Positions 2,272-23,862 of a stretch of 36,664 nucleotides of DNA are shown one piece after another. The translations under genes and the position numbers were made by a program. The stretch's first letter is position 1. Each line of letters opens with the position of its first letter. The notes under the pieces were generated by a model that had not been told where the DNA came from, made no database searches, and saw nothing but the letters and a program-made list of their open reading frames with translations. Source of the stretch: Ramlibacter sp. (lineage in GTDB: Bacteria > Pseudomonadota > Gammaproteobacteria > Burkholderiales > Burkholderiaceae_C); contig JAQGMY010000093.1 of the NCBI GenBank assembly GCA_028292105.1, forward strand, positions 1-36,664. Direction: 5' to 3'.

Positions 2272-3165
2272 ATGACTACCACACTCATTCCGCAACAAGC
2301 GCCGACGGTACGCGACGCTGAGTGGATCCTGCGAGTTTGCGAGCAGGCTCTGGCGGTGAGGAGCAGCTATGGCTGGTCGCAATGGCTGCTGGGAGACATC
2401 CAGGCCATCCTGCCCCATGAATTGCTGATCGCCGCGTGGGGTGACTTCCAGCGCGGGACGATTGCCTATGACGTGGTCACGCGCAGCCCTGCGCTTTCGG
2501 CCCAGTGCCTGGACCGCGACGTCATTCAGATTGCACTGGCAGAGCACTTCCGGCGCTGGTCGGACGGTGGCCAGCAGCCTGTGCTGGTGGACGTCAACAC
2601 GCTGTGGCCCGGCCTGCACCGCCCCACTTCCTCGCCGCCCTGCGTGTTGGTTCATGGGGTGGCCGACCAACGAACGCATCAGGACTTCCTCTACCTCTTT
2701 GCAGGGTCCGAGGCACTGTGCAGCCCCCACTCGAGGCGGGTCTGCGAGGTCATGCTGCCCTTCATCGACATGGGCTTCCGGCAGGTCACGGACCGCGGAC
2801 AGTCCGCAGCGACGCAGGCCCCGTTTGCGCGAAACGGGTGGGGCGTGAGCAGCTTTGCAGACGGCCTGGCCACCCGTCCGTCGCAGGAAAAGGGATGCGT
2901 CACGCGGCAGTACCGCGCCAGCACCTGGGCGCCTGCCGAAACGCAGGAAGGCGGCACTGTCCTGAGTGCCCGCGAGGCGGAGATCATGGAGTGGGTCCGA
3001 ATGGGGAAGACGAACTCCGAGATCGCGATGATCCTGACCCTCAGCACCTTCACGGTGAAGAACCACATGCGGCGCATCTACAAGAAGCTGGACGTCCTCA
3101 ATCGTGCGCAGGCGGTCGGCAGCCTCGGTCCGTCGCGGGCCATGCCGCGTAGTGCAAGCCGGTGA
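2272..3165 (+). CDS. epsA: EpsA-like LuxR-family regulator of the EPS/exosortase locus
   Basis: ORF 2173..3165; ATG at 2272 preceded by TGGAG; C-terminal HTH LSAREAEIMEWVRMGKTNSEIAMILTLSTFTVKNHMRRIYKKLDVLNRAQAVG; lies just upstream of PrsT-like gene. Confidence 0.75.
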   Translation: MTTTLIPQQAPTVRDAEWILRVCEQALAVRSSYGWSQWLLGDIQAILPHELLIAAWGDFQRGTIAYDVVTRSPALSAQCLDRDVIQIALAEHFRRWSDGGQQPVLVDVNTLWPGLHRPTSSPPCVLVHGVADQRTHQDFLYLFAGSEALCSPHSRRVCEVMLPFIDMGFRQVTDRGQSAATQAPFARNGWGVSSFADGLATRPSQEKGCVTRQYRASTWAPAETQEGGTVLSAREAEIMEWVRMGKTNSEIAMILTLSTFTVKNHMRRIYKKLDVLNRAQAVGSLGPSRAMPRSASR

Positions 3166-3209
3166 TCAGCCGATCCAACCTTGCGAACACCTGCCAGAAG
3201 GGAAAGTCC

Positions 3210-5606
3210 ATGACTCCGATGATGCGTTCCATTTCATCCGTGCTCCTTGCGCTCGCCGCCGGCTCGATGGTGGCCTGTTCGACGTCCGAGCAGAAGGTGG
3301 AGACCTTCAACAAGCGTGGCCAGGCGCTGATGGAAAAGGGCGACCTGGTCAAGGCAAGGCTGGAATTCCAGAACGCACTGCAGATCAACCCCTCCGCTGT
3401 GCCTGCGCTCTATGGCTTGGCACTGGTGGCCGAACGAACGCGCGACTGGGAAAGCGCCTACCACTTGCTGGTCAAGATCGTGGAGATGCAGCCCTCGCAC
3501 TTCGACGCCCAGGTGAGGCTGGGAAAACTGCTGCTGGCATCCGGCCAACTCGATGAGGCGCTGCGGACAAGTACGGCGGTGCTGGCCGCGAGGCAGGACA
3601 GCGCGGACGCATTGGCATTGCGCGCCGCAGTCCTGCTCAAGCTGGACGACAAGATCGCCGCTGTCACGTTTGCCAACCAGGCGCTTGCCAAGGATGCGCA
3701 CCACCTCGATGCGCTCGTGGTCCTTGCGTCCGAAAGGCTGCATGCCGGGGATGCCGAGACGGCGATCTCTTTTCTCGACCGCGGCCTGGAGAAGGACGAG
3801 CGGAACGTCTCGTTGCAAATCATCAAGGCGCAGGCCTTCGAAAAAATAGGCCGCCTCGACAAGGCCGAGGACGTGCTGCGCAGGCTCATCCAGCTGTTCC
3901 CGGAGAACACCGACTATCGCTTCCTGCTCGCCAGCTTCCATACAACACACAAACAGAACGAAAAGGCGGAAGCGGAGTACCGCGCGATCGTGGCCAACCA
4001 GCCCGCTGCGCACGCCCCGAAACTCGAACTGGTCAATTTCCTGCGTGTCACGAAAGGCATCAGCGCCGCGGCCGACCAGCTCGCCGAGTTCATCAGGACG
4101 AACCCGAAGGCTTACGACCTGCAGCTCGGCCTGGCGGGCCTCCGGCTGCAGCAAGGCAACCAGGACGCGGCGGTGGCCCTCTGGAAACGCGTGATCGCGG
4201 ACGGCGGAACGGACCCTTCAGCGCAGAAGGCGCGTGGCGCCTTTGCTTCCTACCACCTCGGGCGCCAGAACAAGGCGGCGGCAAAGTCACTCGTGCAGGA
4301 AATGCTCGACAAGGATGTCCGGGAAGAACAGGCCCTGTTCCTGCGTGCCTCGATGGGCCTGGACGAGGGACTCCTGGACGCGGCCGTGGCTGACTTGCGA
4401 ACCATCCTGAGGGACAACCCCGAGTCTGCGCGTTCGCACCTGCTTCTCGCGCGCGTGCACGAACGGCAGGGGCTGTCCGACCTCGCCACCCAGCACTACG
4501 CGCACGCGGCGCAGGCCAGCCGCCATGCGCCTGTCTTCGCGCTCGCGTACGCGGAACATCTGATGAAGAGCGGCCGCCCGCGCTTGGTCGAGGGCGTGCT
4601 GCGGGAAACATTGAAGGTGGCGCCCACCAACACGGCTGTGCTGCGCGTGCTGGCGCAGTCCTACCTGCAGACCGGCAATCTCGCAGCCGCCCAGACGGTC
4701 GCTGACGAAGCCGCGCGCCTCGGCTCCGACGAGATGGTGGCCACCCAGATTCGGGGCGCCGTCTCCGCGGCCCGGCGCGATTTCGGCAGCAGCATCGCCT
4801 CGTTCCGGCGGGCCTACGAACTTGCACCTGCCGACGACGCACACGCGATGGTCACGCTGGTTCGCAGCTACCTCGTGGCCAACAAGCAGAAAGAGGCCAT
4901 CAGCTTCCTGCAATCCGTGCTCGCGACCTCTCCGCAAAACCACGCGGCGCGGGTTCTCTACGGCCAGCTCCTGGCCCAGGCCGGGCAAGTCGGTGAGGGC
5001 CGCGCGGTCCTGAACGAAGCAGCCCGTCTTGCGCCGAAGAGTCCGCTGCCCTACCAGGCGCTCGCAAACGTTCTTCTCGCGTCCAACGACCTGCCGGGGG
5101 CAACCGAGGCCGTGAACCGGGGCCTGCAGGCTCTGCCGGATGACTTCGGGTTGCGTGTGACGCGCGCAGGCTTGCTGGAGATGCAGGGCCAGACCGCAGA
5201 GGCGATCGCATCGTACGAGGCGCTGCTGACCGAACGGCCGCACGCGATCGTGGTTGCGAACAATCTGGCTTCCCTGCTGGCCGACCACCCGAAGGACAGC
5301 GCCAGCCTGCGCCGCGCGTACGACATGGCGCAGCAGTTCCGAAACACGAACATCCCCCAGCTGAAAGACACGGTCGGATGGACCATGCATCTGGCGGGCA
5401 AGCACAGGGAAGCGACGGACCTGCTCAAGAGCGCGGCCGATGAAGCCCCGGAACTCGCGGTTGCGCACTACCACTACGGCATGAACCAGCTTGCATTGAG
5501 CAATACGAAGGCCGCCGCGGAGGCGCTCCGCAAGGCGATCGAGTTGTCCAAGTCGTCGCCCTTCCCGCAGGTGGACGATGCGCGCCGCGCGCTCCAGAGC
5601 CTGTAG
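3210..5606 (+). CDS. prsT: PEP-CTERM-system TPR-repeat lipoprotein (PrsT-like)
   Basis: ~798 aa from ATG 3210 (GGAAAG upstream); signal peptide and lipobox-like LAAGSMVACS; many TPR-like repeats; locus context. Confidence 0.85.
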   Translation: MTPMMRSISSVLLALAAGSMVACSTSEQKVETFNKRGQALMEKGDLVKARLEFQNALQINPSAVPALYGLALVAERTRDWESAYHLLVKIVEMQPSHFDAQVRLGKLLLASGQLDEALRTSTAVLAARQDSADALALRAAVLLKLDDKIAAVTFANQALAKDAHHLDALVVLASERLHAGDAETAISFLDRGLEKDERNVSLQIIKAQAFEKIGRLDKAEDVLRRLIQLFPENTDYRFLLASFHTTHKQNEKAEAEYRAIVANQPAAHAPKLELVNFLRVTKGISAAADQLAEFIRTNPKAYDLQLGLAGLRLQQGNQDAAVALWKRVIADGGTDPSAQKARGAFASYHLGRQNKAAAKSLVQEMLDKDVREEQALFLRASMGLDEGLLDAAVADLRTILRDNPESARSHLLLARVHERQGLSDLATQHYAHAAQASRHAPVFALAYAEHLMKSGRPRLVEGVLRETLKVAPTNTAVLRVLAQSYLQTGNLAAAQTVADEAARLGSDEMVATQIRGAVSAARRDFGSSIASFRRAYELAPADDAHAMVTLVRSYLVANKQKEAISFLQSVLATSPQNHAARVLYGQLLAQAGQVGEGRAVLNEAARLAPKSPLPYQALANVLLASNDLPGATEAVNRGLQALPDDFGLRVTRAGLLEMQGQTAEAIASYEALLTERPHAIVVANNLASLLADHPKDSASLRRAYDMAQQFRNTNIPQLKDTVGWTMHLAGKHREATDLLKSAADEAPELAVAHYHYGMNQLALSNTKAAAEALRKAIELSKSSPFPQVDDARRALQSL

Positions 5607-5615
5607 GCCAACCAG

Positions 5616-6461
5616 ATGTACGAAGCGTACTACGGGCTGCGGGAGAAGCCTTTTTCCATCCAGCCGGACCCCGGGTTCCTCTTCATGAGCAAGAGGCACG
5701 CGCTGGCCTTCACGATGCTGGAATACGGCATCCAGAGCCGGGCCGGATTCTCGGTGATTTGCGGCGACATCGGCTGCGGCAAGACGACGCTGCTGCGCAA
5801 GCTGCTCGACACCCTGGAGGAGTCTGTCACCGTGGGCCTGGTGTACAACACCCACACCGGCATCGCGGACCTCCTGGAATGGGTGATGCTCGCTTTCGGG
5901 CAACCGTACGCCGAGATGTCGCAGGTGGAACGGTATGACCGCTTCCAGCGCTTCCTGGTGGACCAGTTCGCCGCGCGACGCCGTGTGGTCCTGATCGTGG
6001 ACGAGGCGCAAAACCTGTGCGCGAGCGCGCTCGAGTCCCTGCGGATGCTTTCGAACATCAATGCCGACAAGGACCAACTGTTGCAGATCGTCCTCGTCGG
6101 GCAACCGCAGTTGCGCGAGCTGCTGAACCAGCCAGCCCTGCACCAGTTCACTCAGCGCATCGCGGTGGAGTTTTTCATCTCGCCGTTGTCTCCCGAGGAA
6201 GTGGCCCTCTACGTCCGCCACCGCCTGGCCGTGGCGGGATGCGACAGGGAACTGTTCTCCGAAGAGGCCATCGACCGGATCGCCGCCCACACCCGGGGCG
6301 TGCCTCGCAGCATCAACATCCTGTGCGACACGGCCCTGGTGTACGGCTTCGCCGCCGAACGGGAGCACATTGGTGCCGATCTCGTCGACGAAGTCCTCGC
6401 GGACCGCCGGGAATACGGCTTCCTGCGCGCGGACCCGGCAGGAAGACTCGCCCTCGCCTAG
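5616..6461 (+). CDS. ExeA-like AAA ATPase of the exosortase/EPS type
   Basis: MYEAYYGLREKPFSIQPDPGFLFMSKRH N-terminus; Walker A GDIGCGKTTLL; Walker B VVLIVDEAQNL. Confidence 0.88.
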   Translation: MYEAYYGLREKPFSIQPDPGFLFMSKRHALAFTMLEYGIQSRAGFSVICGDIGCGKTTLLRKLLDTLEESVTVGLVYNTHTGIADLLEWVMLAFGQPYAEMSQVERYDRFQRFLVDQFAARRRVVLIVDEAQNLCASALESLRMLSNINADKDQLLQIVLVGQPQLRELLNQPALHQFTQRIAVEFFISPLSPEEVALYVRHRLAVAGCDRELFSEEAIDRIAAHTRGVPRSINILCDTALVYGFAAEREHIGADLVDEVLADRREYGFLRADPAGRLALA

Positions 6462-6497: not shown

Positions 6498-7322
6498 TCA
6501 ATAGTAGTCATTCTGCGGCAGCTTGTCGGAAACCTTGTTGATGACGGTGCCGAGGATGTTGGCTCGGCCGAGGTGGCGTTGACTCTCCTCGATCTCGCGG
6601 CGCGAACTGGCGCCGCTGGCGACCACCAGCAACACGCAGTCCACCTTCGGCAAGACCGCGATGACGTCGTCGACGGCCGCGACGGGCGGCAGGTCGAAGA
6701 TGACGATCCGGTCCGGGTGGTCGTCCCGCAAAGACGCGATGATGCTCGACACCTTGTCCGACGCCAGCATCTCGGCCGCGCCCGCAATCTTGCGGTGCGT
6801 GAGGAGCGTCTGGAACCTGGGAATCCCGACCCGCAGGATCGCATCGCTCAGGCGAGCCGTCCCCGCCAGGACCTCGTTGAGGGAAACGCGCTGCGGCGGC
6901 AGCCCCAGCGATGCCGCCACACAGGGCCGCCGCAGGTCGAAGTCAACGAGGAGTGCCGTGCGCGAAGGGTGATGGGCAATACTCAGCGCCAGGTTGGCCG
7001 CGATCATGGTCTTGCCCGATTGCACCGACGGTGATGTCACTGCAATCGTCCTCCAGCCATTCTCCTGCATCTTCTGCAGCACCTGTGTCCGCAGGAGGTC
7101 GAACTCACGGCGATAGGGATTGTCCTGGTCCAGGGCGACGATGCGGTAGCGCTCGAGGTGGGCGCGGTCCAGCGGCAGGATCTCGTCGCTCGTCGGTGTA
7201 CTTTCATGCCGCCCGGCAGCTGCCGACGCCAGCGAAGCTGGTGCCGCTCCGGAGGGCGCATTCGCAGCGGACGCCGCGGCCTGCTGGCGGGCGCGATCGA
7301 TGGCAAATTTGATTCGTTCCAT
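6498..7322 (-). CDS. Tyrosine autokinase (BY-kinase, CpsD/CapB/EpsG-like)
   Basis: Walker A-like VTSPSVQSGKTMIAANLA; Walker A'-like ALLVDFDLRRP; C-terminal NDYY; adjacent to chain-length determinant gene. Confidence 0.85.
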   Translation of the reverse strand: MERIKFAIDRARQQAAASAANAPSGAAPASLASAAAGRHESTPTSDEILPLDRAHLERYRIVALDQDNPYRREFDLLRTQVLQKMQENGWRTIAVTSPSVQSGKTMIAANLALSIAHHPSRTALLVDFDLRRPCVAASLGLPPQRVSLNEVLAGTARLSDAILRVGIPRFQTLLTHRKIAGAAEMLASDKVSSIIASLRDDHPDRIVIFDLPPVAAVDDVIAVLPKVDCVLLVVASGASSRREIEESQRHLGRANILGTVINKVSDKLPQNDYY

Positions 7323-7329
7323 GTTGGTC

Positions 7330-8898
7330 CTAGCCCAGGCGCATCAGAACCTTCAGGACCACCAGGTCAAGAGGCAGGTAGAAGAAGTGCACGGCCGCGA
7401 TGGCCGCGCCGACCACCAATACGGCTGCACCGGCGGCAGCCGCATGCATCCGCCGGCGCGCGGTGGTCTCTGCCGCCACCGGGATCACGGGGACGGAGAC
7501 CAGTGGCTTCTGACCCAGGATGGCGACGATCTGGCCGGCACCTCGGACCTTGCCGTTCAACGTTTCCGCCAGCGAGACCATCCCGGCGGGGACAGCCATC
7601 GCGAGCATCAGGCTGAGGGCAAGCAGCTTCTTGCGGTCCGGCTTGACGGGGCGGTCCGGCAGGGTCGGCGGCTCCAGCAAGGCGAACTTCTCCGCCTTCT
7701 GGTCCCCCTCCAGGCTCTCGGAGACCTGGGCCGACATCTTCTTGGCGACGATCTCCTCGTACTTCTTCTGTGCCGCCTGGTAGTCGCGGGCCAGCACCGC
7801 CAGCCCGCGCTCCACCTGCGGCAGCTTCACGAGATCCGCATCGTGCTGCGCCATCTGGCCCCGGACAGTCGCCCGCTGGCCGGCGAGCACCCGCAGCCGC
7901 TCGCGCAGCATCGTGGCACGTGCGTCGAAGCGCGCTAGGGCGACCTCCTCGGGAGTGCCTCTCCCGCCTGGACGCCCAGCCTCCGTCGCCTCGGCAGAGG
8001 CTGCCTGCTCAAGCTTCTCGACTCGCCGTTTCGCTGCTTTCAGGTCGGGGTGATCGTCGGTGTAGACCGCGCTCAAGCGTGACACCTCAACCTTCGCACG
8101 CTGGAGCTCCGTCAGGTTCGTCGAGGCTTGCGCGAGCTCTGGTCGCTTCGCGGAACGTTCCAGTTCCAGTGCGCGCAGTTCTTCTTCGGTCGCCGCGTAG
8201 TCGCGGTCGAGCTGTCGCAAGTCTCCTTCGACGCGCTGCAGGGCTGCGACGCCGAACGTCAGGTTCTCGGGCAAGGCCCTTCCGTTCTGCTGCTTGTACG
8301 TCGCGATCTGCGACTCGATCCCTAGCAGCTCTTTCTTCAGCTTCTCCGATTCCTGCGTCAGGAACTCGGTGGTTTGCGCTGCGCGCTGCGTCCGCACCTT
8401 CACGTTTTCGTCGAGGAACAGCGTCACCAGATCGTTTGCCACCGCCATCGCGATGCGGGGCTCACTGTGCTCGAAGGAGACATTGAACGCGATCGCCGCC
8501 GGTCCCTGGCGGTCCGCACGCAGGTTCGCGCTGACGAGCTCGACCTGGATGGTCTTGCGCATGTCGTTGATCTGGTCGGAGGGCGTGAACGATGCCCCCG
8601 CGTCGGCGAAGAGTTTGTGCTTGCGGATGATGCCCAGCAGGTTCTCGCGCGTCATCACGCGCTGCTTGATCACCTCGATGCGCTCATCCGCATAGGACGT
8701 GACCGTTGCCTGGACGAAATCCGTGGGGATCTGCTGCGACTCGATCAGGATGGATCCGGTCGAGCGGTAGACAGCCGGCACCATGAAGGTAACCGCGATC
8801 CCGATGACCAGCATGCCCGCGAAGCTGAGGATGATCAGCCACAGCCTGCGGCGGATGATGGCCAGGTAGTCGCCGAGCGTGAGTTGGTAGTCGTTCAT
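7330..8898 (-). CDS. epsF: Polysaccharide chain-length determinant (Wzz/EpsF-like)
   Basis: 522 aa; N-terminal MNDYQLTLGDYLAIIRRRLWLIILSFAGMLVIGIAVTFMVPAVYRS; coiled-coil middle; second TM near C-terminus. Confidence 0.85.
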   Translation of the reverse strand: MNDYQLTLGDYLAIIRRRLWLIILSFAGMLVIGIAVTFMVPAVYRSTGSILIESQQIPTDFVQATVTSYADERIEVIKQRVMTRENLLGIIRKHKLFADAGASFTPSDQINDMRKTIQVELVSANLRADRQGPAAIAFNVSFEHSEPRIAMAVANDLVTLFLDENVKVRTQRAAQTTEFLTQESEKLKKELLGIESQIATYKQQNGRALPENLTFGVAALQRVEGDLRQLDRDYAATEEELRALELERSAKRPELAQASTNLTELQRAKVEVSRLSAVYTDDHPDLKAAKRRVEKLEQAASAEATEAGRPGGRGTPEEVALARFDARATMLRERLRVLAGQRATVRGQMAQHDADLVKLPQVERGLAVLARDYQAAQKKYEEIVAKKMSAQVSESLEGDQKAEKFALLEPPTLPDRPVKPDRKKLLALSLMLAMAVPAGMVSLAETLNGKVRGAGQIVAILGQKPLVSVPVIPVAAETTARRRMHAAAAGAAVLVVGAAIAAVHFFYLPLDLVVLKVLMRLG

Positions 8899-8908
8899 GG
8901 CATCCGCC

Positions 8909-10036
8909 CTAGAAATCCGGGTGGCTGTAGGTCAACGCGATGGTGAGCAGGCGCGCCCTGGCAGTGCCTTCCACGCTTTGCTGGCTGATATGCGACGCGC
9001 GGGCGGAAACCGTCCAGGCGGCACTCAGTTGATGATTCACGGCCGCCGTCGCGATCGTCCGGCCGGTGGGCATGCCGCGGTCTCTTCCGTGGCCGGCCGT
9101 CAACTCCGCGTTGGTCGATCGGGTGATGTCATAGCTGGCACGCACCCGGAATTCCTGCCCGACGACCAGTCCGGCGGTGGCGATGCTGGTGCTGGGAGCG
9201 CGAGAGGCCTCCAGGGCGACGCGCAGCCGGTCGCCCGAGTATTCGAAGCGCGCCGTCCCCTGCCAATCGGTGCGCCCTCCTCCCTGGAAGAAGTGCATGG
9301 GCCCGGCGTTGATGTCGAAGCGGAGCTCGGGGCTGAACTGCTGGACCACGCCGGCCAGCAAGCCGGCCACTTCCGAACTGCCCGCGCCGTCCGGACGGTA
9401 CACGTCGCCATTGGCTGCAAGGTACCAGCTGCGGCGCTCGTCCTCCTCGCGCATCCAGCGTGCGTCAACGAGCGTTCTCTGGAAGTCGGGCAGCGTGCTG
9501 GCCGAGTTTCGCTCCCAGTCCTGGCGGACGCCGGCTTCCATTCGCGTGACTTCGCTGACGTCGCGGATCATCCGCCCCCCAACCGAGACCAGCGTCCGGG
9601 TGCCATCCACCCCAGCGGGTACCCGTTCGTCGATGCTCAAGGCCCGGAACGGACGGCGGTCGGCGAGCGCAAAAAACTCGGTGCTTCCCACATCGTCGGT
9701 ACGCCTCCAAGTGCCGCGGATCCGCGGATTGATGCGGTCCCTGGCGACGGAGGTGTCGCTGCTCTTTTCGAGCGACAGGGCGCCGTCCACGCTGTACTCC
9801 TCGGCACCCGCGACATAGCGAGCCGTGAACGCCGGCCTCGCACGAAGCCAGGTCGTGCCGCGCGGGGACACCACCGACATTGCGGGATTCGAATCTCTCT
9901 CAACCTCGACCGGTACCGCCACCGAGTAGATGGTCCTGGTCTGCGCCGAAGCCGCACCGGACGATGCGAAGCCCATCGCGCCGACAACGCTGCCGACCAT
10001 CAGGGCGGCCGAGCCCGCGCGCACCGCCACGGTCAC
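8909..10036 (-). CDS. Predicted outer-membrane beta-barrel protein of the EPS operon (EpsL-like)
   Basis: 375 aa with N-terminal signal sequence, alternating aromatic/hydrophobic beta-strand character, C-terminal LTIALTYSHPDF; 4-nt overlap with upstream export gene. Confidence 0.6.
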   Translation of the reverse strand: MTVAVRAGSAALMVGSVVGAMGFASSGAASAQTRTIYSVAVPVEVERDSNPAMSVVSPRGTTWLRARPAFTARYVAGAEEYSVDGALSLEKSSDTSVARDRINPRIRGTWRRTDDVGSTEFFALADRRPFRALSIDERVPAGVDGTRTLVSVGGRMIRDVSEVTRMEAGVRQDWERNSASTLPDFQRTLVDARWMREEDERRSWYLAANGDVYRPDGAGSSEVAGLLAGVVQQFSPELRFDINAGPMHFFQGGGRTDWQGTARFEYSGDRLRVALEASRAPSTSIATAGLVVGQEFRVRASYDITRSTNAELTAGHGRDRGMPTGRTIATAAVNHQLSAAWTVSARASHISQQSVEGTARARLLTIALTYSHPDF

Positions 10037-10602
10037 GGCACCACGACGGTGTCGCCGGGTCGCATCAGCACGTTGGATTCGAGTGCCTGGCCTCGGAGCA
10101 GTTCGTTGTAGCGGACGCGAAGCGTCTGGGAGCCGCCTGCCTGCGGGGACTTGCGCATGACCACGATCGCGTCGCCGTTGGCGAATCGGTCCAGGCCGCC
10201 GGCCTGGCTGAGAACCTGGAGCACGCTCGTGTCCGGTCCGGACAGGGCGATCTGTCCCGGCTTGAGCACCTTGCCGATCACGTATACGCTGTTACCTTCG
10301 GTCGCCGTGACCACCACGCTCACGACGGCATCGGGGATGTAGGCCTTGAGGCCGTCGACGATCCGCCTTTCGACGTCACCGGTCGAAAGCCCGGACACGA
10401 CGATGCGCCCGACGAGGGGAAACCCGATGCTTCCATCCGGCAGCACCTTCACTTCGCGATTCAGCGCTTCCTCACGCCAGACCGAGATCTGGAGCTTGTC
10501 ACCGTGGCGCAGAGCGTATGCGTCGCGCACCTCCTGTGCCGTTGCGGCGCCGGCGGAGAGCAGCATGAGGACGCAACATATGAAGCGAGCAAACATCATC
10601 AT
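10033..10602 (-). CDS. epsE: Polysaccharide export protein (Wza/EpsE-like, SLBB domain)
   Basis: ORF 10033..10608 begins at TTG; first ATG at 10602; YALRHGDKLQISVWREEALNREVKVLPDGSIGFPLVGRIVVSG is the poly_export signature. Confidence 0.85.
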   Translation of the reverse strand: MMMFARFICCVLMLLSAGAATAQEVRDAYALRHGDKLQISVWREEALNREVKVLPDGSIGFPLVGRIVVSGLSTGDVERRIVDGLKAYIPDAVVSVVVTATEGNSVYVIGKVLKPGQIALSGPDTSVLQVLSQAGGLDRFANGDAIVVMRKSPQAGGSQTLRVRYNELLRGQALESNVLMRPGDTVVVP

Positions 10603-10622
10603 TCCCAATCAATTATTCGCGC

Positions 10623-10648
10623 GGTCGGCTTCCGATGGGAAGCCGACC
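10623..10648 (-). terminator. Strong stem-loop between the sorting-signal protein gene and the epsE-like gene
   Basis: Perfect 11-bp inverted repeat GGTCGGCTTCC-GATG-GGAAGCCGACC; AT-rich but not pure U tract on the transcript side; located 3' of the minus-strand cargo gene. Confidence 0.6.
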
Positions 10649-10691: not shown

Positions 10692-11243
10692 TCACATCTT
10701 GCGGCGGCTGGAGATCCCCAGGAAGGCAAGCAGACCCGTGCCGAACAGCCAGATCGCGCCGGGCAGCGGGACGGCGGAGATGTTCGTCGAGATCGACAGT
10801 TGCCCCGCTTGCGTAGCGATCGCCAGGACGTACTGTCCCGCGGTCAGCAAGTAGGTGAAGAACGGCACATTGTTGTTCAGCGGGACGTCGCTCTGAGTCC
10901 ACGTGACGAGCTGCGGGCCCGTGTCACTCACGAAAGGACCTGTCTCGCCCAGTGCTGGATTGGTGTCCGTATAGAGGGTATACGTGGCGGGAGTTCCCAC
11001 CGGCTCGGCCGAGAAGGTCGTGAACTTCGTGAGCTGGTTCCACGAGGCGTCGACGATCAGCTGGTAGTAGCTGGTGGTCGGCGCGGTGAGGCTGCCGTCC
11101 GTTGCGATGTTGTAGACGGCCCCGGCTGCGGGGTTGGTGAGGAAAACCGTCTGCTCGATCGTGACGGGCGCTGCTTGGGCGCTCGCGGCCACGGCCATCG
11201 CGGCTGTGGCGATCGCAGTTGCGAGGCTTGATCTGATCGACAT
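10692..11243 (-). CDS. Secreted protein with VPLPx/PEP-CTERM-type sorting signal (exosortase substrate candidate)
   Basis: N-terminal signal peptide MSIRSSLATAIATAAMAVAASAQA; C-terminus SAVPLPGAIWLFGTGLLAFLGISSRRKM = motif + TM helix + basic tail. Confidence 0.88.
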   Translation of the reverse strand: MSIRSSLATAIATAAMAVAASAQAAPVTIEQTVFLTNPAAGAVYNIATDGSLTAPTTSYYQLIVDASWNQLTKFTTFSAEPVGTPATYTLYTDTNPALGETGPFVSDTGPQLVTWTQSDVPLNNNVPFFTYLLTAGQYVLAIATQAGQLSISTNISAVPLPGAIWLFGTGLLAFLGISSRRKM

Positions 11244-11330
11244 GTGAACTCCAGGTTGTGGTGAAAGGGCCCGATCAGGTTACGTACTGGAGGTGCTTCT
11301 CACAATGACTCGTTGGTGCCAATCATCAGC

Positions 11331-11353
11331 CGTGTGCGTCGCCGATGCACACG
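11331..11353 (-). other. Stem-loop 3' of the glycosylphosphotransferase gene, upstream of the cargo gene
   Basis: CGTGTGCGT-CGCCG-ATGCACACG: 9-bp stem with one G.T wobble; no U tract. Confidence 0.45.
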
Positions 11354-11364
11354 CTTCGACAGCT

Positions 11365-12801
11365 TCAGTACGCGTTCCTTCCGGTGAACGCCCTCGTCGT
11401 GCGCACGAGGATCGACAGATCCAGCCATACGGACCAGTTGTTGATGTACTCGATGTCGCTCTCGACGCGCAGCATCATCAGTTCGATGGAACGCGTCTCG
11501 CCGCGATGACCCCGGACCTGCGCCAGCCCGGTGATGCCTGGCTTGATGTTCTGCCGCGCGAAGTAGTGCGCGATGTGCTGGGCGTACTCCACGTCGTGCT
11601 GCACGGCGTGCGGCCGTGGCCCGACCAGGGACATCTCCCCGGCGAGCACGTTGAAGATCTGGGGCAGTTCGTCCAGGCTCGTGCGGCGCAGGAAGCGACC
11701 CACCCGGGTGACGCGCGGGTCACCTTGCCGGGCCTGAGCCAGGCGCCCGTCGTCGTCGTGCACATACATGCTCCGGAACTTCCAGATCCTGAATCGTTTT
11801 CCGCCCCAGCCCAGTCTCGCCTGCCGGAAGAAGACAGGCCCGGGGCTATCCAGCCTGACGGCGATGGCGATCAGCAACATCAAGGGCACCAGCGGGATGA
11901 GAAGCAGGACCGACAGGAGGCAGTCTTCGGCAAGCTTCAAGAGCCTGCGGGTGCCGATCAACGGCGTCTCGGAGAGCGTCAGAACGGGCAGGCCTGCAAT
12001 TTCGCTGACCGTGTGGTTCACCAGGCGCAGGGAGAAGATGTCCGGCACCCAATGGACGGCCACATGCTTGTCCAGCAAGCGGAAGTACAACGTCTCCAGG
12101 ATCTCGGACGCGTTCAGGGGAATCGCGAAGTACACGGTGCGGATCTTGTGCAGGGCAATCAGTTCGATGAGCTGTTCGAGGCGCCCGAGGCAGTGGGGGC
12201 TCTTGCCGAACGTGGACTGCGGCGCCGTGGGCGCCGCTTCCCGTCCGAGTTCCACGTAGCCCACGACGTGCTGCCCCAGCCAATCACTGCTTTCGATGCG
12301 ATGGTTCAGGTACATCGCGAGCTGGCCGCTGCCCACGATGATCACGTTGTTGACTTCGCTGGAATGCCTCAGCACTTCCTGGTAGGCAGCCCTGATCAAT
12401 GCCCGTGTCGCGAGCTGCGACAGGTAGCCCAGCACGAACAACTGCGCCAGCAGGAGCCGGGAGAAGACTTCCGATAGCTTGGTCGCGATGCCAAGCGCGA
12501 ACATCACCGAGAAGGCGAGCGCCCACGACTCGAGGAGATCGATGGCCTTGCGCGTGAAGTTCGTGTTTCGCCGATAGATGCCGAAGGCGTCGTAGAAGAA
12601 TCCCAGCGCGCAAAGGAGCAGCAGCACGAAGACGGTGTACTCGGCGGTCAGCACGCCGACGTGCTGCGTGATCAGGAAATAACAGAGGCCGATGAGGATG
12701 GTGCCATCGAGCGCTGCCTGCACGTCCGCGATGCTGCTTCGCCGCTGCACGACGGCGGGCTTGGCGAGAATCTGGTCTTCCATGGTTCTACTCGGGGACA
12801 T
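11365..12801 (-). CDS. Undecaprenyl-phosphate sugar phosphotransferase (WcaJ/WbaP/EpsB-like)
   Basis: 478 aa; C-terminal ...[30 protein letters not shown]...[33 protein letters not shown] signature; N-terminal TM segments. Confidence 0.93.
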
Positions 12802-14407
12802 GCGGCTTCAGGCGCGGCGCGGCGGCGCGGATGAACCCGACCAGCCTTTCATCGGCTACGCGCGCATCCTCGTTGCGTCCGATCTCGGTCACCACCCGCA
12901 CCATCGCCCCGTCCGTGCGATTGCGGAAGATCGCATCCCTCAACAGATACCACTTCATGGCGTATTCATTCGAGATGCGGCGGCCTCTCTGGTCGAACCA
13001 GTAATACACCAACGCCCGCTCTTTCCCCTTGCTGATCAGGACCCGGACGACGCCGAGCGTGGTGCCGCCGGACAGCAGGAAGTTCGCGTTGCGAATGTCG
13101 GAGATGATCCAGCCGCCCCCGGGGATGCACACTTGCGGGGAGTGCGGCGACACCCCCTTGCGCTGGGAAGCGTAGTAGGCCGCGTAGAGGTTCACCCGGT
13201 TGCGCCCCGAATCGACATAGTCCGCAAGCAGGTAGTCGTCGAAACCGAGGAATCGCTCCACCTCGATCGGCAACGAGGATTCGGTGGAACGCCAAGCCTC
13301 CAGCTGCCCGGGGAACAGCCGGAAGGAGTCCCGCGCGGGCTTGATTTCCGCGCGGCCGCTGACGACCTGTGCGGCCACGAACGCGCAGAGGATCAGGCCC
13401 GCCGCAGCGACGACCATGCCGACGCCGTCTCGAGGACCCGTGCCGGACGGAGCGATGGGAGCCACCTGCGGAAACTGCTGGACGTCGATCAGGCTCCTGC
13501 GCAGCGTCTTCCTCTCGATCAGCATGATCTCCAGCATCAGCACGATCTGGCAGAACAGGAAGATGATCCAGCCCTCGAAGTAGTGGAGAAAGCCCTCGGC
13601 CATCCCGTTGCCCCAGCGCTCGACCAGGACCCCGACGATGGCGATCCGCACGCTGTTGGTGAGGATGGTGACCGGAATCGTGGACAGGACCAGCAGCACC
13701 CGCCAGCGCATCGCCGCCGGGTACATGTACGCCATCAGGAATCCGACGCTGAACAGCGGATAGAGGTAGCGCAACCCGCTGCAGGCCTCGACGACCTGGA
13801 GCTTGTACGTGCCCAGGTCGATCACGTTCCCTTCGAGGAACACCGAGTAGTCGAGGGCGCGCAGCACAGCGACCCCGAGCTTGGAGGAGATGAGCTGCAG
13901 GCGCCAGGTGAGCTGCGACTCCACGAAGTACGGCATCGGGATGGACAGCAGCAGCACCCCGATGGGAAGGAGCGTCAGGCGCAGCAGGGAGACGCCGCCG
14001 TAGCAGAGGACGGCCCCCAGCAGGAAGCCAATGAAGGACAGCTGGACGAGCATCATCAGCGCCGCGAGCTCGCCGACAGCCAGCATCGCACCGCTGGTGA
14101 TGATCACGACCACACCCCACCGCGATGGCGCTCCCCTGCTTTCCACCAGCGCTTTCCTGCGGTGCCAGAGCAGCCATGCGGAAATCAGCGGGATGAAAAA
14201 TCCGTGGCTGTACTCCTCCTGCCGGTACCAGCGGTGCACCAGGTCGCTCAAGCCCCCGTAGCAGGCCGCGATCGCGCAAACCACGGCAAGGAGGAGGAAC
14301 ATTTCCCGCGGTCCCGCGCGCGCGCGCAGGGAGCGCTTCGCACTGGCTGGATCGGACGCGGTAGGGTCTTGAACATCGGTCAAGACGGTGCTGGTCGGAA
14401 GCGACAC
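12788..14407 (-). CDS. xrtD: Exosortase fused to C-terminal EpsI domain (XrtD-like, VPLPA-CTERM type)
   Basis: 539 aa; polytopic N-terminal half with VVEACSGLRYLYPLF (Cys), ILTNSVRIAIVGVL (Arg), LHYFEGWIIFL (His); C-terminal half EpsI-like (CIPGGGWII...VYYWFDQRGR). Confidence 0.85.
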   Translation of the reverse strand: MSLPTSTVLTDVQDPTASDPASAKRSLRARAGPREMFLLLAVVCAIAACYGGLSDLVHRWYRQEEYSHGFFIPLISAWLLWHRRKALVESRGAPSRWGVVVIITSGAMLAVGELAALMMLVQLSFIGFLLGAVLCYGGVSLLRLTLLPIGVLLLSIPMPYFVESQLTWRLQLISSKLGVAVLRALDYSVFLEGNVIDLGTYKLQVVEACSGLRYLYPLFSVGFLMAYMYPAAMRWRVLLVLSTIPVTILTNSVRIAIVGVLVERWGNGMAEGFLHYFEGWIIFLFCQIVLMLEIMLIERKTLRRSLIDVQQFPQVAPIAPSGTGPRDGVGMVVAAAGLILCAFVAAQVVSGRAEIKPARDSFRLFPGQLEAWRSTESSLPIEVERFLGFDDYLLADYVDSGRNRVNLYAAYYASQRKGVSPHSPQVCIPGGGWIISDIRNANFLLSGGTTLGVVRVLISKGKERALVYYWFDQRGRRISNEYAMKWYLLRDAIFRNRTDGAMVRVVTEIGRNEDARVADERLVGFIRAAAPRLKPHVPE

Positions 14408-14515
14408 TACGGGCTCGTTCGGTACCTGCCGGGAAGGGGCAGTTGGTTGGGGACAGCTTCCGCGACCTTACTGGACCACCCGGTGCGCGCACAACGGCAC
14501 GAAGGGACTAATCCG

Positions 14516-20264: not shown

Positions 20265-20407
20265 TTCATGCGCAGGGCCGTACGTGCTTGCGACAGCTGG
20301 TGAGGTCGGGCAGGGGAGTGTCATCCAGGGGTGATGCGGTCTCAATAGCTCCAAGGAACCATCCGGCGCGTGCGGTAACGTCTCCGAGCCGAGGAATCAT
20401 CCTGCAC

Positions 20408-22029: not shown

Positions 22030-23862
22030 ATGCGTATGAAACGATTGGGCCTGCTCGTGGCAGCGGCCATGGCGGTGGCATCCTGCGGGGGCGGAGGCAG
22101 CAACGAAGGGACCGATGAACAGGGCGCGAGCAACCTGGCGCCCGCGCCGGCGCCAGCATCATCGACCCCTGCGGCAGCAGCACCGACGTCCCCGGTCGCA
22201 GGGCCGGCTTCCGTCCCGGTCCTCCCTCCCGTCATCGCGCGCCGCCCCGACGCCCCGCCGCTGGGTGTCAACCTGGAGGCGCTGGACGACTGGGCGCGCT
22301 TGCAGCCCTTTGCCGACCTGATGAAGACCTCGCGCCCGTGGGGAACGGCCGATGCGCCGTGGGATGAGAAAGCTGTTGTGGATGCGCAGGGCTGGCCCAC
22401 CGGCGACGCCAGCGTGGTGGCGGTGTTGCGCACCTTCGACGCCGGCGACGAGAACAGCGCGTACCGCTACCTGAAGCCGGGCGTGTACGCCTTGAGCTTC
22501 CTCGGCAAGGCCCGGGTGACGCTCACCTCCTCGCAGGACGTGGAAGTGCGCAACTACCTGCACGACCCGGCCACGAACCGCTCGACGGCCGATGTGGTCG
22601 TCGGGGCCGCAGCGACCCAGATCATGCTGGGCTTTCGCGAAACCTCCGGCGGCGTTCGGGATGTCTCGCTGCTGCGGCCTGGCTACACGGCAGCGCAGAC
22701 CTTCACCGACGAGTTCAGGCAGGCGGTCGCTCCTTTCGGCGTGCTGCGCCTGATGGACTATCTCGCCTCCAACAGCACGCGCTTGCGCTCCTGGCAGGAG
22801 AGAACCACGCCGGCCTCGGCGACCCAGGCGGGCAGGAACGGCGGCTCCTACGAGTACGCCATCCAGATGGCCAACGAACTCGGCAAGGACCTGTGGATCA
22901 ACGTGCCGGTGCTGGCCGACGACGAGTACGTGCGCTCGCTGGCGCAAATGCTCAAGCGCGACCTGTCGCCGCAGCGCACCGTGTACCTGGAATACAGCAA
23001 CGAACTCTGGAACACGCAGTTCCCGCAGACCGCGGACAACCGCAATGCCGCGGTCGCAGAAGCCATCGCCGGTGACAAGACGCTCACCGGTGGCACGCTG
23101 TGCACCCAGGCGACGTTCGACGCGGCAACCGGTGGCCCCTGCAATGCATACTGGGCGGGCTACTTCCGAGTGGGCAAGCGGCTGGTGCGCATCAGCCAGA
23201 TCTTTGGCGAAGTCTTCGGCCCCGAGGCGATCAACACTCGCGTGCGCCCGGTCTATGCAGCGCAATGGGCGTCATCGGCCATCGCCGAGCAGGTCCTCAA
23301 GAACATCGCCACTTACCGCGGAAAACCCTCGTCGCTGCTGTACGCGGTGGCAGGCGCGCCGTACGTCAACCTCCCCCAGGAGATGATCACCGCCACCACC
23401 AGCACGCCGGACCAGATCCATGCCGCGCTGCAAACGTCGCTGGACACCGACTACGCGCCCTACTTCACCGTCGGCGCGTTCGTCGCGGGCTCCTACGTCC
23501 GCGGCACGGCCTACAACGGCGGCGACTTCACCCGCGCGACCCAGAAGGCCATCGCCGACTACTACGGCATCAAGAGCTTTGCCTACGAGGGAGGCCCGGA
23601 CCTGGGCCAGTCGGACGCGAGCGCGCTGGCCAAGCGCGCCGCCAATCTTGACCCGCGCATGGGCAACATCGTGACCGCCCAGCTGGCGCAGTGGTACGGC
23701 TGCGGCAACGACCTGTTCGTGTACTTCAACCTCACCAGCGCCTGGAACAAGTTCGGCCACTGGGGCCTCACCAACGATGCGGGCAACCTGAATTCACCCA
23801 AGTACGCGGCCGCCCGCCGCGTCGCCGAGAGCAGCCGCAGCGAGTGGAACACCTGCCGCTGA
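22030..23862 (+). CDS. Large secreted lipoprotein, glycosidase / cellulose-binding-protein-like
   Basis: MRMKRLGLLVAAAMAVASCGGGG signal with lipobox VASC; P/A-rich linker; LGVNLEALDDWARLQPFADLMKTSRPW; TVYLEYSNELWNTQF resembles glycosidase NE motif region. Confidence 0.65.
   Translation: MRMKRLGLLVAAAMAVASCGGGGSNEGTDEQGASNLAPAPAPASSTPAAAAPTSPVAGPASVPVLPPVIARRPDAPPLGVNLEALDDWARLQPFADLMKTSRPWGTADAPWDEKAVVDAQGWPTGDASVVAVLRTFDAGDENSAYRYLKPGVYALSFLGKARVTLTSSQDVEVRNYLHDPATNRSTADVVVGAAATQIMLGFRETSGGVRDVSLLRPGYTAAQTFTDEFRQAVAPFGVLRLMDYLASNSTRLRSWQERTTPASATQAGRNGGSYEYAIQMANELGKDLWINVPVLADDEYVRSLAQMLKRDLSPQRTVYLEYSNELWNTQFPQTADNRNAAVAEAIAGDKTLTGGTLCTQATFDAATGGPCNAYWAGYFRVGKRLVRISQIFGEVFGPEAINTRVRPVYAAQWASSAIAEQVLKNIATYRGKPSSLLYAVAGAPYVNLPQEMITATTSTPDQIHAALQTSLDTDYAPYFTVGAFVAGSYVRGTAYNGGDFTRATQKAIADYYGIKSFAYEGGPDLGQSDASALAKRAANLDPRMGNIVTAQLAQWYGCGNDLFVYFNLTSAWNKFGHWGLTNDAGNLNSPKYAAARRVAESSRSEWNTCR

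Follow-up and report, generated by a model that had tools for sequence, protein, structure and literature searches.

We consider it likely that the Wzx/Wzy-type exopolysaccharide (EPS) locus on contig JAQGMY010000093.1 of Ramlibacter sp. (GenBank assembly GCA_028292105.1) contains an XrtD/VPLP-CTERM sorting module, in which a secreted protein with a VPLPG-type tail (hereafter the cargo) is processed by the exosortase XrtD into an EPS-associated surface protein, and in which the tail can also serve as a plain membrane anchor. The window, that is the whole stretch of 36,664 nucleotides analyzed, corresponds to contig C131 in the draft genome G000 (4.53 Mb in 496 contigs, 83.5% complete). XrtD itself is known; the interest of the case lies in a promoter element shared by the XrtD and cargo genes and in the natural loss of XrtD together with PrsT. 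How exosortases act on their substrates, and what links them to polysaccharide loci, is for the most part an unsolved question, one reason being the large number of substrates in a typical genome. The window offers a single enzyme and a single visible substrate within the same EPS locus, with an element common to both genes; the same arrangement occurs with a few more candidate substrates in the cultured species Ramlibacter ginsenosidimutans (G021), and sister species represent a natural enzyme knock-out that retains the substrate.

By its profile matches, the 539-residue enzyme is a member of the known family XrtD. It scored 521.8 bits against TIGR04152 (cut-off 400), over profile positions 2-486 of 486. 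The exosortase core occupies residues 45-294 (PF09721, 227.5 bits) and an EpsI half residues 335-535 (PF11984, 192.6 bits; TIGR02914, 140.2 bits), the domain matches being far beyond chance. The residues C209-x-G, N251-x-x-R254 and H275-x-x-x-G279, which fit the CxG, NxxR and HxxxG exosortase motifs described by Haft (PMC1569441), were invariant in all five XrtD proteins compared. An earlier reading of this DNA from its sequence only had proposed an exosortase-EpsI fusion with Cys/Arg/His motifs, of the class tied to VPLPx tails, and these results agree with it on each point. Membership of XrtA was rejected (TIGR03109, 179.6 bits, below the curated 208), and a PDB sequence search with XrtD gave no match. 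With the XrtD family the window enzyme shares the whole-length match, the fusion, the catalytic motifs and the EPS neighbourhood; it differs in having apparently one visible substrate, in the VPLPG rather than VPLPA tail of that substrate, and in the promoter element that the enzyme and cargo genes share. Cleavage or transfer of VPLPx-tailed proteins would follow from the family model.

The cargo gene lies on the same strand two genes downstream, as the sequence-only reading had stated, with exactly one gene (for a WcaJ-type transferase) in between. Its product of 183 residues has an N-terminal signal peptide and a tripartite PEP-CTERM-type tail, composed of the motif, a transmembrane helix and a basic C-terminus at the very end; a low-confidence AlphaFold model places putative helices at residues 3-20 and 160-178. 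A tail profile (A4) made from 22 VPLP-type tails, the window cargo's own included, detected the cargo tail at E = 7.9e-17, and the next match in the assembled genome had E = 0.33. Shuffled windows yielded such tails at about 0.05 per window, and no other open reading frame of the window was found to carry a sorting signal, again as first noticed. TIGR03370 and PF07589 were too insensitive for a genome scan, PF07589 having omitted the cargo itself, and profile A4 was used in their place. A PDB sequence search with the cargo returned chance-level antibody matches only.

The position of the cargo gene is conserved. In all four Ramlibacter genomes with the locus, and in Dechloromonas, a cargo gene stands between WcaJ and the export gene; the Dechloromonas order is WcaJ, a VPLPGALWLFGSALLGFLGLSNRRKF protein with the element upstream, a second VPLPA protein, export protein, a protein of unknown family, chain-length determinant and kinase. 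In Pseudomonas cuatrocienegasensis a VPLPG protein gene is found just ahead of the export gene. The conserved slot in Dechloromonas and the VPLPG protein near the export gene in P. cuatrocienegasensis indicate that the cargo is an old component of this type of EPS locus. The same-slot position in the EPS export operon would fit a cargo that is an EPS component, and an EPS-anchoring role is suggested. That a cargo within the locus is peculiar to Ramlibacter was rejected, since an element scan and a looser regular expression found long-tailed cargos in the XrtD locus of Comamonadaceae CD01.

To see how far the number of cargos varies, relatives were searched (37 Ramlibacter genomes; 399 genomes overall in the order-level search for XrtD and the cargo profile). 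With profile A4 one credible VPLP tail was found in the window's own genome, a count valid for the assembled 83.5%, so that the many VPLPx-tailed proteins that would have spoken against a dedicated enzyme-cargo pair did not appear. One each was found in the XrtD-less Ramlibacter genomes G023 and G017, and one strong plus up to three weaker in R. ginsenosidimutans; 18 Ramlibacter genomes without an orthologous EPS locus gave no credible VPLP tail. Two XrtD genomes of another family gave 20 and 28 matches. XrtD exceeded its cut-off in 16 of the 399 genomes, and VP[LV]P-xx-W tails go with it in the order: of the 16 genomes in which the cargo profile matched, 12 also have XrtD above cut-off. Several VPLP-tailed XrtD partners occur in relatives (at least two element-driven ones in R. 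ginsenosidimutans, several in CD01 and Dechloromonas). The single cargo holds for the assembly studied and is no rule for XrtD generally. Beside the EPS locus of R. ginsenosidimutans (L047, 2433-3041 and 3523-4083, plus strand) two tandem secreted proteins with degenerate tails (TPVPGALALFLGALGFLGLRRK...) are possible further substrates.

A second exosortase is present in the window's own genome. It is XrtQ, on contig C309 (L015), with 348.9 bits against NF012182 (cut-off 270), and its gene immediately follows that of a VIT-VWA protein (TIGR03788-like) whose tail carries TPEPATWG (4078-6120 and 6129-7076 of L015, plus strand). Competition of this exosortase for the VPLPG cargo is unlikely, because XrtQ has a partner of its own next to it, whose tail is different, and because four Ramlibacter genomes without the XrtD locus (G034, G008, G005, G009) have an exosortase that scores similarly. 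Such an exosortase is found in R. ginsenosidimutans too. XrtQ and the VIT-VWA protein resemble the window pair, with which they share the genome, in that an exosortase adjoins a partner with a PEP-CTERM tail; they differ in exosortase class and tail, and no EPS genes were seen on the 14-kb contig. They look like an independent enzyme-partner system.

The XrtD and cargo promoters have in common a 20-bp element, TTRGYNCNWWCGNNNCRTTG, lying over sigma70-like −35/−10 sequences. The two genes had been placed in one operon, a description that is too simple, since each has its own promoter-like element. At the cargo gene the element has the form TTGGCACCAACGNNNCATTGTGA, 17 bp, TAACCT, and the 17-bp spacing and the −10 are conserved in 4/4 Ramlibacter; XrtD is preceded by the element in the window and in R. 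ginsenosidimutans. In a search of the window with three mismatches, 3 sites were found against 3.04 expected, a number no better than chance; the two best sites, with 0 and 1 mismatches, scored 32.4 and 27.9 bits, whereas shuffling gives 0.12 matches per window above 14; both sites had been in the matrix training. Exact matches to the pattern YTRGYNCNWWSGNNYYRTTG, which was drawn partly from CD01 and Dechloromonas sites, were counted genome-wide. There are two in assembled G000 (cargo and XrtD only), three in R. ginsenosidimutans (cargo, XrtD and C2:144184, ahead of a gene for a TPLPG-tailed protein, itself an independent find of the tail profile), one in G023 (cargo), two in G017 (cargo and one coding-looking site), three in CD01 (all at VPLPG genes), one in one Dechloromonas (a VPLPAAIW gene), and none in the control Ramlibacter genomes G007 and G013. 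Cargo-matching sites that took no part in building the pattern are G021 C2:144184, G437 C1:63020, G437 C33:4999, G436 C142:30180 and G436 C212:28900. With a matrix made from Ramlibacter only, five cargo promoters outside the training scored 24.8, 22.0, 21.5, 21.0 and 20.6 bits, while shuffles of the same 88 kb gave 0.017 expected matches above 20 bits. Since three of the five stretches had been fetched because of pattern matches, the least biased evidence comes from the XrtD locus of CD01 taken by itself, in which 21 kb contained two matrix matches above 20 bits. A weaker, tentative copy upstream of the wzx-like flippase operon was detected at a level of which shuffling gives 0.12 per window (above 14 bits); the corresponding operon of R. 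ginsenosidimutans has a 20.6-bit site upstream.

Sigma-54 control was expected from the precedents of PepA and of Haft 2006. It was rejected for the cargo: the GG...TTG spacing is 5 bp too long, and a pattern scan found no −24/−12 site upstream. The PEP-CTERM/EpsH motifs of Haft 2006 are similar in that a conserved DNA element precedes sorting-signal genes and that the cargo is often its own transcription unit. They consist, however, of a 17-mer ending TTTACA plus a −24/−12 sigma-54 site, and the window element differs in sequence and spacing. Among 80 XrtD loci compared, an EpsA-like regulator was detected in three, those of Ramlibacter, CD01 and Dechloromonas, which are the ones with sites ahead of cargo genes. 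The shared element is probably read by this EpsA-like LuxR regulator, whose identity we infer. Several VPLPG/VPLPA genes of CD01 and Dechloromonas (L300, L302-L305) have the same promoter element. The element may help to find substrates: those of XrtD would be predictable from DNA alone, independently of the weakly conserved tails. An element shared by XrtD and cargo appears to be new. In G007, a Ramlibacter without XrtD, a one-mismatch copy (C1:2553881, L297) is located some 200 bp upstream of a gene for polysaccharide export. One-mismatch matches number 25 in that genome, and the copy may hint at a wider regulon or be due to chance.

The locus was further compared among the Ramlibacter genomes. 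An EPS locus with an export protein at least 67% identical is present in 4 of 37 (G000, G021, G023, G017), and XrtD only in the first two of these. No PF09721 exosortase was detected in G023 (listed as 100% complete) or G017 (69%) at E <= 0.001. In both genomes (L049, L050) a glycosyltransferase abuts WcaJ at the expected XrtD position, and EpsA abuts the ATPase; PrsT is missing from its slot, the rest of G023 not having been searched for it. A concatenated tree had the topology (G000,(G021,(G023,G017))), supported at 99 and 91%. XrtD of the two Ramlibacter genomes that have it groups apart from that of other genera (100%). It can be seen that XrtD and PrsT are absent on one 91%-supported branch on which the cargo tail is retained. 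The simplest explanation is a single loss of both genes, each from its own slot, in an ancestor common to G023 and G017, and the joint loss suggests that the two proteins act together. The cargo tails of G023 and G017 are 81% identical, with a ratio of non-synonymous to synonymous substitution rates (dN/dS) of about 0.24 (rough, from 26 codons); the cargo bodies are hardly alignable. Because the cargo persists in two genomes without XrtD, its retention there does not require this enzyme. The retained tail suggests either a function of the anchored form itself or the action of another protease. A natural loss of the enzyme with retention of its cargo appears to be new.

By analogy, PepA (NF033554) of the floc-forming bacteria Aquincola and Zoogloea may be taken as the nearest functional precedent for the cargo. 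It too is a secreted PEP-CTERM-type protein tied to EPS, PrsT is present in both systems, and the C-terminal part of the cargo (residues 95-182) gives a partial match (E 7.7e-8). In Aquincola, PepA and PrsT act in floc formation, and overexpression of PepA raises the amount of cell-bound EPS at the expense of the soluble fraction (PMC9850573). The cargo is not a member of the family, with 32.5 bits against a cut-off of 80 and no family match once the tail is removed. In addition, PepA is driven by sigma-54 (RpoN) and the cargo element is sigma70-like. The formation of cysts that carry EPS bound to the cells has been described for the genus Ramlibacter (PMC9658432).

The following mechanism is proposed for the sorting module. 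A signal peptide would direct secretion of the cargo, which the VPLPG-transmembrane-Arg tail would then keep anchored in the inner membrane. XrtD would recognize VPLPG at the periplasmic face, using Cys209/Arg254/His275, and cleave there with release of the cargo or its transfer to an acceptor, so that the cargo body might leave with, or become attached to, the exported polysaccharide. Both genes would be switched on jointly via the shared element, probably by the nearby LuxR-type EpsA-like regulator. In the sister lineage without XrtD and PrsT, selection may have maintained the cargo as an envelope protein simply anchored by its tail. A wider proposal, which we put forward only tentatively, is that TTRGYNCNWWCGNNNCRTTG marks an undescribed XrtD/VPLP-tail regulon of Betaproteobacteria read by an EpsA-type LuxR protein, and that the tail works independently of an exosortase after the XrtD/PrsT loss in one branch.

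Several observations weigh against the sorting module. The cargo tail falls short of the established families (14.0 bits against the curated 25.35 of TIGR03370, VPLPA-CTERM, of which it is not a member; 19.9 against the gathering threshold of 20.7 of PF07589, PEP-CTERM, slightly under). The body without the tail has no family match and no recognized domain, as the sequence-only reading had it, and the AlphaFold model has a mean pLDDT of 44.5 with no confident fold. Further substrates may lie outside the assembled part of the genome, the cleavage, expression and localization in the module are predictions from sequence, and two genomes keep the cargo without XrtD. This last point bears also on a strict form of the dedicated pair first proposed, with XrtD serving one cargo that works only when processed. 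The single tail in the assembly, the element on just those two genes, the common locus and the XrtD class of the enzyme speak for it, and to this extent the proposal stands. The presence of XrtQ and the cargo of G023 and G017, two of the three findings that the sequence-only reading had named as refuting it, together with the further XrtD cargos of R. ginsenosidimutans, CD01 and Dechloromonas, make the strict form quite improbable. The opposite view, that the tail is a mere C-terminal membrane anchor of an EPS-assembly helper and that XrtD acts on other, unseen substrates, would explain why the tail is conserved past the loss of XrtD and why no other VPLP tail is found in the XrtD-less genomes. 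A plain anchor has no need of the PLPG-x-x-W common to the tails of XrtD genomes, however, nor would it account for the promoter element shared with XrtD, and no other substrate was seen; we regard this view as very unlikely.

Two other explanations concern the XrtD-less species only. There the cargo might be a recent leftover of a decaying system, as Haft 2006 proposed for orphan PEP-CTERM genes, for example in Chlorobium tepidum (PMC1569441); the body is shorter and variable, and in G017 the motif has T for V. But the loss appears older than the divergence between G023 and G017, a distance of about 0.5 substitutions per site, and both genomes still have the tail, the signal peptide and the promoter element, so that a leftover seems unlikely. 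Alternatively, another protease may substitute for XrtD, since the intact P-L-P-G-A-x-W is perhaps still read by something. The search of G023 and G017 that found no PF09721 member did not extend to rhombosortase- or myxosortase-type enzymes, and we give a substitute protease a small chance. The sorting module, with a tail that doubles as anchor, is preferred to these explanations. The features of the window are listed in Table 1.

Table 1. Features of the window discussed in the text, with the evidence for each (profile scores in bits).
Feature	Position	Strand	Evidence or remark
LuxR-family regulator, EpsA-like, candidate element binder	2356..3165	+	TIGR03020 166.5 (cut-off 170), GerE domain
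PrsT-like TPR protein	3162..5606	+	TIGR02917 236.8
PEP-CTERM-system ATPase	5616..6461	+	TIGR03015 299.1
XrtA-type tyrosine autokinase	6498..7322	-	TIGR03018 134.6
Chain-length determinant	7330..8898	-	TIGR03007 224.8
Export-operon protein	8909..10036	-	No Pfam/NCBIfam match; conserved in other loci
Polysaccharide export protein (Poly_export + SLBB), directly downstream of cargo	10033..10608	-	TIGR03027 126.4, PF02563
11-bp perfect hairpin just past cargo stop	10623..10648	-	Possible attenuator/terminator; not kept in all relatives
VPLPG-tailed secreted cargo, 183 aa, ATG start: signal peptide, variable body, tail VPLPGAIWLFGTGLLAFLGISSRRKM	10692..11243	-	Tail profile A4; same-slot orthologues
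Cargo promoter element TTGGCACCAACGAGTCATTGTGA-N17-TAACCT	11277..11322	-	20-bp element overlapping sigma70-like −35, then −10
WcaJ-type undecaprenyl-phosphate glucose phosphotransferase between XrtD and cargo	11365..12801	-	TIGR03023 470.8 (cut-off 410.75)
XrtD exosortase with C-terminal EpsI domain, 539 aa, GTG start	12788..14407	-	TIGR04152, PF09721, PF11984, TIGR02914
XrtD promoter element TTAGTCCCTTCGTGCCGTTGTGC-N18-TAAGGT	14465..14511	-	Conserved upstream of XrtD in R. ginsenosidimutans
Weaker element copy upstream of wzx-like flippase operon (tentative)	20340..20362	-	14.8 bits

Beyond XrtD, the minus strand continues with four glycosyltransferases and then the flippase. The genes of the locus are related to the XrtA/PEP-CTERM core set, most of them scoring under the XrtA-specific cut-offs. 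A putative lipoprotein-like secreted protein of 605 residues (22045-23862, plus strand), for which no Pfam/NCBIfam match was found, has a counterpart in R. ginsenosidimutans at 58%.

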